A DNA stretch of 42,153 nucleotides, taken from IMG/VR virus record IMGVR_UViG_3300045996_001655, positions 1-42,153 of that record; one strand, written 5' to 3'. The stretch comes from a virus. How positions within the stretch are numbered: position 1 is the stretch's first letter; every line of letters starts with the position of its first letter. The position numbers were made by a program, and so were the translations under genes. This document shows positions 29,987 through 40,077 of this stretch, piece by piece. The notes under the pieces were generated by a model. The model ran no database searches. It saw nothing but the letters and a program-made list of their open reading frames with translations, and had not been told where the DNA came from.

Positions 29987-30405
29987 AGTCGATGGCGTAC
30001 CTGAACTACGGCCGGTGGGTCGCCGACTGTCCGGTCGACGGATGCGGCGACGCCCGCGCGGTCTACCACCCGCAGACCGGCGCCCGGCAGACCGAGGACG
30101 TCTGCGCCAAGGGTCATGCCTTCCAGATCGAGATGCCGCCCGAGCAGGTCGAGGCCCGGATCGTCGCGGCTGTCGCCGACCGGCAGGAGGACGGCGACAA
30201 GGCGTGGTTCCCCAAGGGACACGGCTGGGCCGAGGCGGCAGGCTTCCCGACCGGGCAGACCCCGGCCGAGCTCGTCGAGGAGGGCAAGCACGTGGCCACG
30301 CGTCGGGCCGAGCAGGCTGCCGCCAAGCGCGATCGGACCCGCGAAATCCTGGCCGACCTCGGCATCGAGGTTCGCCCCGACGGCACGTTCTCAGGGAGCC
30401 TGTGA
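29983..30405 (+). CDS. Minor tail-region protein with zinc-ribbon-like N-terminus
   Basis: A 140-residue protein with CPVDGC-x20-C (residues about 16-41) and a helical, charged C-terminus (KHVATRRAEQAAAKRDRTREI). It overlaps the distal tail gene by GTGA. Function unknown; similar proteins occur in actinophage tail modules. Confidence 0.6.
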   Translation: MKSMAYLNYGRWVADCPVDGCGDARAVYHPQTGARQTEDVCAKGHAFQIEMPPEQVEARIVAAVADRQEDGDKAWFPKGHGWAEAAGFPTGQTPAELVEEGKHVATRRAEQAAAKRDRTREILADLGIEVRPDGTFSGSL

Positions 30406-30950
30406 TGGCCTGGTCCACGCCCATGACGGCGATCTCCAACGCGACGTTCACCGCTGCGCAGTTCAACGCCAGCGTGCGCGACAACCTGCTGGAGACCGCC
30501 CCGGCGAAGGCCACCGCGGCCGGGCAGATGTTCGTCTCCACCGCGGCGAACACGATCGCGGCCCGCACTCCCGGCCGCTTCACCAACGGCACGGCCCAGA
30601 GCACGGCCAGTCTCACGTACACCGACCTGGCCACGGTCGGCCCGGCATACTCCGTGACCACCGGCACCAGTGCACTGGTGATCGTGTCCGCTGCCATCGG
30701 CAACTCTGTGGCGGGCGGTGGTGGCCTGATGAGCTTCGCGGTGTCCGGCGCCACCCCCACCATCGCGGCGTCAGACGATCGCGCGCTACGCAACATCTCC
30801 AGTACGGCCAGCGCCACTAGCACTCTGTCGAAGGTGCATCTTCAGATCGGCTTGACGCCAGGCAGCAACACGTTCACCGCGAAGTACGCAGCGGCTATCG
30901 GGGGCACCGCCAGCTTCCAATTTCGTGAGCTGTGCGTCATCCCGTTCTAG
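30405..30950 (+). CDS. Minor tail/fibre protein
   Basis: A 181-residue protein opening MAWSTPMTAISNATFTAAQFNASVRDNLLETAPAKAT, a recurrent start of actinophage fibre proteins. The remainder is beta-rich, Ser/Thr/Ala-rich, ending QFRELCVIPF. It is probably the receptor-binding or tip fibre. ATG 30405 overlaps the previous TGA by one base. Confidence 0.7.
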   Translation: MAWSTPMTAISNATFTAAQFNASVRDNLLETAPAKATAAGQMFVSTAANTIAARTPGRFTNGTAQSTASLTYTDLATVGPAYSVTTGTSALVIVSAAIGNSVAGGGGLMSFAVSGATPTIAASDDRALRNISSTASATSTLSKVHLQIGLTPGSNTFTAKYAAAIGGTASFQFRELCVIPF

Positions 30951-30964
30951 GAAGGCAGTAGCGC

Positions 30965-31174
30965 ATGGCGAGCAAGGACGGCAAGGATCTCGAAGCGGGC
31001 AACCGCATCGTCTACGACTACGGCCAGGGCTCGAAGCAGTTCACGCTGCTGGAGGTGACGGTCAGGCCGGAAGGCAGCATGGACGAGGTGTGCCTGCACA
31101 TGACCAGCGAAGAGGTGGGCGAGCGGCTGGCCGCCGTGGGCTATACGCAGCAGTTCGAGGTCCCCGGATGGTGA
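30965..31174 (+). CDS. Small protein after the tail fibre
   Basis: A 69-residue protein (NRIVYDYGQGSKQFTLLEV) of unknown function, GAAGG upstream. Its final codons overlap the start of the secreted protein gene by 7 bases, so translation of the next gene is coupled to this one. Confidence 0.6.
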   Translation: MASKDGKDLEAGNRIVYDYGQGSKQFTLLEVTVRPEGSMDEVCLHMTSEEVGERLAAVGYTQQFEVPGW

Positions 31175-32316
31175 TACGCCGCGCCGCCCTCCTCGCCGCC
31201 GTTCTCACGGCGGCTTTTTTGTGCCCGCCGCCGGCCACCGCCGCGGACCGCGGAGACGAGTGGCGCGCCCTGGCCACCCGGGCGCTGGCCACCTTCGAGC
31301 GGACGGACAACGTCGGCGACGGCGGCACGGGCGGCCAGAAGGTGATGTCGTACGGCCTGGCGTACGAAGCGAGCGGCCGGCTGCGGGGCTTCGACGACGT
31401 CCGGACCCGCCGCTACCTGGTGAAGATCCTCAGCATGAAGAACCCGGACGGCGGGTACGGCCTGCCGTTCGCCTACGACGTCCTCGGAGACGGAACGGTC
31501 AACCCGGCGACCACCACCTACACGGTGACGCTGGCGGACCACGTCGGCTCGCCGCTGCTGGCCGGCTACCTGGCAGGCGCGGTGCCGCGGGCCGAGGTGC
31601 AGAACATCGTCAATCTGATCATGTCGACGCCGCGGATCGACACCGACCGCGGCCAGTGCATCGCCTACTCCCGCCACCCGAATGACTCGGTTCCGTACGC
31701 GTGCGTGCACAACGTCTCGGCCGGCGCCGCAAGGTTCCTGCTCGAGGCGCAGTCCGCGGGCATCGGACGGTCCGGCCTGGCCGCGCTGGTCGAAGGCGTC
31801 ACCCGCCGCGAGACCTACGCTTATCTGCCGGCCAGCAAGAACTGGCGCTACGCCGACACGCAGGTCATGTCGGACCCGGACCACCAGTCCTACGAAGCAT
31901 GGTCGATGTACTTCCTGGCCCCGCCGGTCGCCAACAACGTCGTCTATTACCTGATGAACACCAGCTTTGCCGCCGAGTGGGGCGCTCAGCAGTCATCGGT
32001 GATCCACGCCCGGCTGACCGCCCTGCCGCCGGCGCTCGGCGGGATCGCCGCCCCGGCCGCGTCCGCCGACCGGTGGTGCGTGCTCGGCGACCGGTGGCTG
32101 CCGGAAGTCGAGGCGTACGTGGGCGCGCTGCCGAACATCGACGCGGCCGCGCAGATCGCCCAGCTGACCGCGAAGGCCGCCGACGCGTGCGGCCCGGCCC
32201 CGAGCCTGCCGACCACTCCGCCGGTGACCACCGCCCCGCCCACGACGGTGCCGACGACGACGTCCCCGCCGCCGGTGGACCCGACCACCGAGCCCCCGTC
32301 CACCCAGGGAGCATGA
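31168..32316 (+). CDS. Secreted protein with Pro/Thr-rich tail (possible alpha/alpha toroid)
   Basis: A 382-residue protein with a clear signal peptide (RR at 4-5, hydrophobic 6-19, likely cleavage after ATA near residue 25). The mature part includes MKNPDGGYGLPFA, like the Q-x-x-D-G-G-F-G motif of squalene-cyclase/prenyltransferase-type alpha/alpha toroids, and further aromatic, Gly and His residues. The last 40 residues are a Pro/Thr linker. A perfect terminator lies within its signal-peptide codons. It may be surface-modifying cargo or a wall-active enzyme; function unknown. Confidence 0.6.
   Translation: MVIRRAALLAAVLTAAFLCPPPATAADRGDEWRALATRALATFERTDNVGDGGTGGQKVMSYGLAYEASGRLRGFDDVRTRRYLVKILSMKNPDGGYGLPFAYDVLGDGTVNPATTTYTVTLADHVGSPLLAGYLAGAVPRAEVQNIVNLIMSTPRIDTDRGQCIAYSRHPNDSVPYACVHNVSAGAARFLLEAQSAGIGRSGLAALVEGVTRRETYAYLPASKNWRYADTQVMSDPDHQSYEAWSMYFLAPPVANNVVYYLMNTSFAAEWGAQQSSVIHARLTALPPALGGIAAPAASADRWCVLGDRWLPEVEAYVGALPNIDAAAQIAQLTAKAADACGPAPSLPTTPPVTTAPPTTVPTTTSPPPVDPTTEPPSTQGA
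31195..31220 (+). terminator. Intrinsic terminator inside signal-peptide codons
   Basis: GCCGCCGT (31195-31202) and ACGGCGGC (31207-31214) form an 8-bp perfect stem with a 4-base loop, followed by TTTTTT (31215-31220). It occupies codons 10-18 of the secreted protein. It is the best-formed terminator in the genome and probably ends the tail operon unless ribosomes prevent hairpin formation. Confidence 0.75.
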
Positions 32317-32852
32317 TGCGCGTCTTCTACGACTGCGAATTCCTCGAGGACGGCAAGACGATCGAGCTGATCTCGATCGGCATGGTCGCCGAGGACGGCC
32401 GCGAGCTGTACCTGGTCAACCGCGACGCCCCGTGGAAGCGGATCAAGAAGAACGAGTGGCTGATGGCCAACGTCGTACCCAAGCTGCCGCGCGGGCATGG
32501 CGACTGGCGCAACCACATGCCGAAGAAGTGGCTGATCGACTTCAACGACCCGTATGTGCGAGGCCGCGACCAGATCGCCGAGGCGGTGCAGCACTTCCTG
32601 CAGGCCACGCCGGACCTTGAGCTGTGGGCGGACTACGGCGCGTATGACCACGTCGTGCTGTGCCAGCTCTTCGGCCGAATGATCGACCTGCCGTCCGGCG
32701 TGCCGATGTTCACGCACGACCTGCAGCAGGAACTGCGCCGACTCGGTAACCCCGCCCTTCCCGAGCAGGCCGCCGGGGCGCACAACGCTCTTGACGATGC
32801 CCGCCATCTCAAGGCCTGCTTCGAATCGATCACTCGACAGGGGGCCCCGTGA
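32313..32852 (+). CDS. Rv2179c-like DEDDh 3'-5' exoribonuclease
   Basis: A 179-residue protein beginning MMRVFYDCEFLEDGKTIELISIGMVAEDGRELY, closely following the Rv2179c family start. D7-x-E9 (exo I), D112 (GAYDHVV, exo II), and H157 with D161/162 (AHNALDDARH, exo III) give the DEDDh set. The host family degrades RNA 3'->5'. In a phage it could turn over host or phage mRNA. ATG 32313 overlaps the secreted-protein stop (ATGA). Confidence 0.82.
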   Translation: MMRVFYDCEFLEDGKTIELISIGMVAEDGRELYLVNRDAPWKRIKKNEWLMANVVPKLPRGHGDWRNHMPKKWLIDFNDPYVRGRDQIAEAVQHFLQATPDLELWADYGAYDHVVLCQLFGRMIDLPSGVPMFTHDLQQELRRLGNPALPEQAAGAHNALDDARHLKACFESITRQGAP

Positions 32853-33634
32853 CCGCAGCCAAGCCCAACCACCGGGCCGCCCGCACGCTGCTGCTGCAGC
32901 ACCTCGACATGCACCCCGGCCGCACCGTCGAGTCCGACCTTGACCCGGCCGAGGTCGGCATCGTCGGCGACACCGCCCACGCCGACGGCGGCGACAGCTA
33001 CCACCTCGGCGCCGACCAGATCCGCGCGCGCAACGGCCGCGACCGGTACTCCGTCGACGAGTCCACCCGCGACAAGCGGGGTCTCGACAACTACGCCAGC
33101 GCGATGGATATCGGCTGGTTCCGGGTCACCACCCAGCGCGGCACGTTCGACCTGCGCGACTTCAGCAGCTGGCTGGTCGACCTGTGCCGGGCCGGCGACC
33201 CGGACACCCGCGACCTGCGCGAGGTCATCTACTCCCCCGACGGCCAGGTCGTGCGCCGCTGGGACCGCCTGGGCCGCCGCGTCTCCGGTGACAGCTCGCA
33301 CCTGTCCCACACGCACCTGTCCGAGCACCGCGACGCCGACGGCCACCGCATGTTGCGGCTGGCGACCCGCTGGCTGCAGCACATCGGCATGATCCCTGAG
33401 GAGGACACCATGACCCCCGACCAGCTGCTCGACGCCCTGGAAACCCCGCGAGGGCAGGCCTTGCTGGCCAAGGCTGCCGGCCGCGGCGTCCACAACCAGG
33501 TCCTCGGCAAGGGCCCGGAGACGATCGGCCAGGACCTGCAGGGCGACGACGCCGTGCTCGCCGCCCGGTTCGACAAGCTGGAGGCCGCCGTCGCCGAGGT
33601 CAAGGCGCTGGTCGCCGGCGAGCCGCAGGGCTGA
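32849..33634 (+). CDS. Endolysin (M15-like peptidase)
   Basis: A 261-residue protein. SYHLG (H52), SAMDIG (D87) and SHTHLS (H154-x-H156) are zinc ligands of an M15/D-Ala-D-Ala carboxypeptidase-like domain found in actinophage endolysins. The C-terminal 70 residues are helical and may be a binding or oligomerisation tail. It cleaves the peptide part of peptidoglycan at lysis. GTG start overlaps the RNase stop; membrane proteins follow. Confidence 0.82.
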   Translation: MTAAKPNHRAARTLLLQHLDMHPGRTVESDLDPAEVGIVGDTAHADGGDSYHLGADQIRARNGRDRYSVDESTRDKRGLDNYASAMDIGWFRVTTQRGTFDLRDFSSWLVDLCRAGDPDTRDLREVIYSPDGQVVRRWDRLGRRVSGDSSHLSHTHLSEHRDADGHRMLRLATRWLQHIGMIPEEDTMTPDQLLDALETPRGQALLAKAAGRGVHNQVLGKGPETIGQDLQGDDAVLAARFDKLEAAVAEVKALVAGEPQG

Positions 33635-35079: not shown

Positions 35080-35427
35080 ATGAAGCTTTCCCGAGACCCG
35101 GCGTTCTACGTCATGCTCGCCGCCACCGTGATCCGCTTGCTCGCCGCGTTCGTCGTCGAGATCTCCGCCGCCCAGCAGACCTGGCTGAACGCCGCGGTCG
35201 CCGCTGGCGGCGGTGTCGTCATCGCCGTCTGGGTCAAGCGCGACGGGCAGATCGCCGCCCTGACCGGGCTCGCCTCGGCGCTGCTCGCCGTCGCGGTCGG
35301 CTTCGGCGCGAACATCGACGCCGAGGGCCAGGCCGCCATCATGTCGTTCGTCGGCGTCGCCGCGGCGGCGTTCATCCGCACGCAGGTGACGGCACCGGTC
35401 AACGCCGTCGGCAACGCGCAGGTCTGA
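35080..35427 (+). CDS. Holin candidate
   Basis: A 115-residue protein with three to four membrane helices (about 9-28, 35-52, 58-76, 84-100), a short basic N-terminus (MKLSRDP) and a polar C-terminus. GAGGAG lies upstream of ATG 35080. Size and topology match actinophage holins, making it a stronger holin candidate than 33637-34053. Confidence 0.7.
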   Translation: MKLSRDPAFYVMLAATVIRLLAAFVVEISAAQQTWLNAAVAAGGGVVIAVWVKRDGQIAALTGLASALLAVAVGFGANIDAEGQAAIMSFVGVAAAAFIRTQVTAPVNAVGNAQV

Positions 35428-35757: not shown

Positions 35758-35793
35758 AACCGCCCCCAGCCAGACGGCTGGGGGCGGTTCTTG
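35758..35793. terminator. Bidirectional terminator between convergent operons
   Basis: AACCGCCCCCAGCC (35758-35771) and GGCTGGGGGCGGTT (35776-35789) form a perfect 14-bp stem with an AGAC loop. It separates the late plus-strand operon from the minus-strand transfer-like operon and can serve both. Confidence 0.85.
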
Positions 35794-40045: not shown

Positions 40046-40077
40046 AGCCCCCGCCCATCTCGGGCGGGGGCTCTTTT
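40046..40077. terminator. Intrinsic terminator after the RHH gene
   Basis: AGCCCCCGCCC (40046-40056) and GGGCGGGGGCT (40062-40072) pair perfectly over 11 bp with an ATCTC loop and are followed by CTTTT. It separates the RHH gene from the convergent HTH gene and could serve both strands. Confidence 0.82.

Follow-up and report, generated by a model that had tools for sequence, protein, structure and literature searches.

Terminators within coding sequences are commonly written off as noise. In the E. coli pyrBI attenuator, a terminator hairpin sits in a translated frame, where a nearby ribosome can suppress it; that frame belongs to a separate leader peptide, and transcription pause sites accompany it. 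In pil1 of S. gallolyticus, an upstream ORF is translated close to a terminator and the spacing of its stop decides readthrough: where the leader stop lies at least 28 nt away the terminator stays active, and nearer stops open it (PMC3894217). In E. coli, ribosomes at an upstream stop repress lambda tR2 only within ~27 nt, and two constructs whose spacers measured 17-18 nt terminated with efficiencies of 0.12 and 0.8, depending on sequence (PMC4824070). A terminator placed 30 bp inside an ORF loses only ~10% of its efficiency to its own translation and keeps ~90%, the reason given being that the new ribosome has yet to catch the polymerase (PMC4824070, Li et al. 2015). Mycobacterial RNA polymerase, for its part, reportedly requires a U-tract at intrinsic terminators, as Czyz 2014 is cited in PMC10990936.

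We consider here a hairpin and T-run at the border of the tail and lysis genes in the window, by which we mean the whole stretch of viral DNA analysed (42,153 nucleotides). Like the terminators of phage late operons, such as those of L004 and L005, it combines a GC-rich stem, a short loop and a U-tract between late-gene modules; theirs are intergenic, however, whereas that of the window lies within the coding sequence of the next gene. Construct W48, in which lambda tR2 has the NinA start 30 bp upstream (PMC4824070), matches it in lying ~30 nt past a start codon, and is efficient though translated, but W48 is engineered, was measured in E. coli and has no signal peptide. The resemblance to pyrBI is that the hairpin falls within a frame predicted to be translated, since this frame is conserved as a protein in five relatives; the frame is nevertheless that of a structural gene, and no separate leader peptide with a U-rich pause segment was seen, positions 31168-31194 being GC-rich with no U-run. 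With pil1 it shares an upstream ORF ending near the terminator, but pil1 varies by GCAGA repeats, which the window lacks, and the upstream ORF of the window is not conserved. The kind of element is already known; what is new is its placement in a coding sequence and its conservation. Our preferred reading, to which we give a probability of roughly 0.6, is that 31195-31220 would act as a leaky intrinsic (Rho-independent) terminator, lowering transcription between the tail and lysis genes.

A hairpin and T-run in signal-peptide codons

The element reads GCCGCCGT-TCTC-ACGGCGGC-TTTTTT on the plus strand, within codons 10-18 (GCC GCC GTT CTC ACG GCG GCT TTT TTG) of the gene for a predicted secreted protein (Table 1). 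The perfect 8-bp stem, 4-nt loop and six Ts are exactly as the initial annotation had described them, as is the overlap with the preceding gene, the secreted-protein ATG sharing ATGGTGA with the stop of a 69-aa ORF. The RNA of a 38-nt segment folds at -16.3 kcal/mol (z = -4.4). A search of Rfam returned no family match.

Table 1. Positions of the element, its host gene and the neighbouring late genes in the window
Feature	Position	Strand	Remarks
Last tail gene, minor tail protein	30390-30950	+	phrog_7565
69-aa ORF	30965-31174	+	stop (31172-31174) overlaps secreted-protein ATG
GAGG, plausible ribosome-binding site for ATG 31168	31157-31160	+	seven bases upstream; by eye
Predicted secreted protein, 382 aa	31168-32316	+	function unassigned; unnamed phage family
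Signal-peptide codons MVIRRAALLAAVLTAAFLCPPPATA holding the hairpin	31168-31242	+	cleavage site by eye; N-terminal pattern in all homologues
Candidate terminator hairpin, 5' arm GCCGCCGT	31195-31202	+	codons 10-12
Hairpin loop TCTC, 4 nt	31203-31206	+	
Candidate terminator hairpin, 3' arm ACGGCGGC	31207-31214	+	codons 14-16
T6 / U-tract	31215-31220	+	rare codons GCT-TTT-TTG (each 4-5% of synonyms)
DnaQ/RNase H-like exonuclease gene	32313-32852	+	3' of the candidate terminator; PF16473, phrog_2259
Putative endolysin	32849-33634	+	annotated by position; homologue in Micromonospora phage pMLP1 (44% identity)
Holin	35080-35427	+	phrog_9752
Bidirectional terminator-like hairpin, 12 bp	35760-35787	.	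3' of last late gene
Bidirectional terminator-like hairpin, 10-11 bp	40046-40072		

Within a window of 70% GC, the six Ts form the sole run of T or A of at least 6 in 42 kb, and just 0.064% of positions mark the end of a perfect Watson-Crick stem of 8 bp or more. Scored by a d'Aubenton-type d, the GC-rich hairpin followed by its U-tract is the top intrinsic-terminator match of the window (d=36.9), a value reached in 0 of 60 Markov resamples, in which sites with d of at least 20 averaged 0.017 per window. Only two other sites have d of at least 15 (~35760 and 40047), both bidirectional. The stem alone is unremarkable: with G-U pairs allowed, 57% of synonymous draws for the window produce a stem of 7 or more pairs, because the codons of Ala-Ala...Ala-Ala are self-complementary. 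It is rather the U-tract, written in rare codons at the foot of the stem, that is surprising.

The host protein itself drew no match from Pfam, PHROGs, NCBIfam or PDB sequences. The best structural matches, to complement, LanC-like proteins and alpha/alpha-barrel hydrolases, were discarded, all having E > 0.1 and the AlphaFold model being poor (mean pLDDT 51). The family carries two conserved motifs, PDGGYGLxxAYDxxxDGT and C(V/I)HNxxAGAAxF.

Conservation and codon choice among relatives

We compared the secreted protein with its homologues in L002 (=L008/L025), L009 (=L024), L026 (=L028), L027 (=L030) and L029. The comparison is limited to viral metagenome contigs, since annotated phages, plasmids and GTDB genome contigs yielded no relative of the protein. 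These five non-redundant relatives make up three lineages, with the window as a fourth: L002, L009, and the trio of L026, L027 and L029, which we count as one because L027 almost duplicates L026, and because L029 and L026 share 84% identity across the gene.

A hairpin with a U-tract recurs at the homologous codons in four of the five relatives, and by sequence comparison it is conserved in three of the four lineages. In L009, whose protein is 42% identical to that of the window, it reads AACCGCCG-CCATCA-CGGCGGTT-TTTTT; in L026 and L027, with proteins 49-52% identical, GCCGCGGT-CCTC-ACCGCGGC-TTTTCT; and in L029, GCCGCGGT-TCTC-ACCGCGGC-TTTTCT, the U-tract of L026 and L029 being imperfect. The element thus stays at the same signal-peptide codons, at the tail/lysis border, though the phage proteins are just 40-50% identical. 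Between L026 and L029, an unalignable stretch of DNA gives way to renewed similarity precisely where the stem begins, at its first base. L002 is the exception: its homologous codons hold no hairpin with a T-run, although the L002 and L009 proteins share 68% identity, so the element is either dispensable or was recently lost there.

Could the hairpin simply follow from the protein that it encodes? A self-complementary Ala-rich core, joined to rare codons favoured early in signal peptides, could yield such a structure with no function of its own. The conserved peptide AAVLTAA does account for part of the stem, the longer AAVLTAAFLC being kept in the window, L026 and L029, and under an earlier, looser null, stems of at least 7 pairs appeared in 42-77% of synonymous draws. 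That null failed to discriminate and was superseded by a scored one, in which the protein was held fixed, codons were drawn by the phage's own usage and each sequence was resampled 100,000 times; the relatives were looked at after the hypothesis had been set. The observed joint score of stem and U-tract was reached in 5 of 100,000 draws for the window (P = 5e-5), 3 for L009 (P = 3e-5), 173 for L026 (P = 1.7e-3) and 283 for L029 (P = 2.8e-3), and is rare in each lineage that carries the element. Most of this signal comes from the rare GCT/GTT-TTT-TTG codons, and in every positive sequence the T-rich rare codons directly abut the stem on its 3' side. L026 has several further rare codons near its gene start, so rarity is not confined to the U-tract, which favours a protein-level origin; L002, on the other hand, encodes the signal peptide without the element. 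On balance, we consider an origin from protein and codon constraints to be quite improbable.

Two pairs of the stem differ on both sides among relatives. The pair 31195-31214 is G-C in the window and A-U in L009, and the pair 31200-31209 is C-G in the window and L009 and G-C in L026, L027 and L029, the latter swap being purely synonymous (Ala GCC to GCG with Thr ACG to ACC). Covariation counts showed no excess over shuffles (59/500), as expected with five sequences. By itself, then, covariation in the stem falls short of significance, and it is the codon test that carries the argument.

The same sequences bear on programmed transcriptional slippage, by which a polymerase slipping at the stem-loop and U-run would produce mixed frames of the secreted protein. 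Penno et al. 2015, as listed in PMC5009743, name just such an arrangement, with a hairpin lying 5' of a U-run, and U UUU UUG could also serve as a slippery heptamer. However, L026 and L029 have merely TTTTCT, and across the window and its relatives the alternative frames stop at unrelated points (one at 156, 292, 84 and 92 codons, the other at 42, 68, 52 and 30). With a conserved shifted-frame product absent, we rejected slippage, which we hold to be very improbable.

Distance from upstream ribosomes

In the window and its relatives, the stem starts 26-33 nt past the proposed start codons. The spacer between the preceding stop and the stem is more variable: 20 nt in the window, 36 in L009, 33 in L026 and 66 in L029. 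The initial annotation had supposed that ribosomes arriving from the overlapping gene would cover the hairpin and allow readthrough. The terminator-like element itself, at the tail/lysis border inside signal-peptide codons, stands up in three of four lineages; its covering from upstream is not supported as proposed, as the 69-aa gene is found in no relative and spacers there (33-66 nt) exceed ~27 nt. Any upstream coupling would at best be peculiar to the window phage, since no 69-aa gene was found in the hairpin-bearing relatives and their tail-gene stops lie 33, 36 or 66 nt upstream. If E. coli distances can be carried over to actinobacteria, as we infer, then by these and the pil1 distances the element of the relatives should terminate well, whilst the 20 nt of the window is intermediate, and ribosomes from the 69-aa ORF might partly suppress its terminator.

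Cast as a mechanism, the model of the initial annotation would be a translation-gated attenuator in the manner of pyrBI or pil1, in which translation of the 69-aa ORF and re-initiation at ATGGTGA opens the hairpin and turns the lysis genes on, and lagging translation halts transcription. The hairpin does lie within a frame predicted to be translated, the 69-aa stop is 20 nt from the stem and so inside the ~27-nt repression zone of E. coli (PMC4824070), and pil1 offers a precedent in which a stop spacing of 28 nt decides the state of the terminator (PMC3894217). Yet a near and conserved upstream stop is not what the relatives have; in comparable geometry an ORF's own translation shifted efficiency by ~10% only (PMC4824070); and there is no evident signal to sense. 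We regard this attenuator as unlikely.

The window holds a repeat of the 5' arm, GCCGCCGTGGG at 31130-31140, close to where the 69-aa ORF finishes. This repeat is able to base-pair with the candidate terminator's 3' arm, the alternative fold reaching -39 kcal/mol over 96 nt, and its 8-mer is GC-rich; a trp-type antiterminator pairing of this sort has no counterpart in L009.

The late operon around the element

In all relatives, the secreted gene lies just 3' of a tail gene, and in L002 and L009 the endolysin gene downstream is homologous to that of the window. The hairpin at 35760-35787 is likely the end of the late operon, and the element at 31195-31220 would be internal to it, since the next strong terminator downstream comes directly after the last late gene. 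A scan for sigma-70-like promoters downstream of the hairpin, a weak one for such organisms, found none; with no visible promoter of their own, the exonuclease, endolysin and holin genes probably rely on readthrough.

Returning to the leaky terminator that we favour, RNA polymerase leaving the tail genes would transcribe the hairpin and U-tract, and a fraction would terminate there; those reading through would go on to transcribe the secreted-protein, exonuclease, endolysin and holin genes, until the terminator at ~35760. A ribosome that follows the polymerase closely and is already at work on the first codons would suppress termination only in part. The outcome would be a fixed, probably leaky step-down from abundant tail proteins to less abundant lysis proteins. 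We infer termination in the host, its leakiness and the dependence of the lysis genes on readthrough alike. If functional, the element would show how a compact phage genome embeds an expression step in a coding sequence, and would offer a clean case for gauging the effect of a gene's own translation on a terminator in actinobacteria. Perhaps the signal-peptide codons even act as a translation-responsive gate to lysis, readthrough depending on the speed with which ribosomes get through the first codons (or with which these are engaged for export); the lysis module would then sense the state of host translation, although we think this a long shot.

Internal terminators may not be peculiar to this phage. 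In the related phages L004 (4248-4264) and L005 (4224-4241), terminator-like T5 hairpins lie in intergenic DNA directly 3' of a gene resembling that of the major tail protein, where the window has none. These sites fit the idea that late operons of this group hold internal terminators, that of the window happening to lie in a gene.

Gene content around the element also varies. The 69-aa ORF has no relative that we found, and neither it nor the DnaQ-like exonuclease gene, the two neighbours of the secreted gene in the window, occupies the equivalent position in L002 or L009; the two look like inserted cargo. The stretch read of Micromonospora phage pMLP1 has no secreted gene and holds the relative of the endolysin. 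Several tandem copies of the last tail gene (phrog_7565-like) are present in the related contigs L010, L011, L012 and L014.
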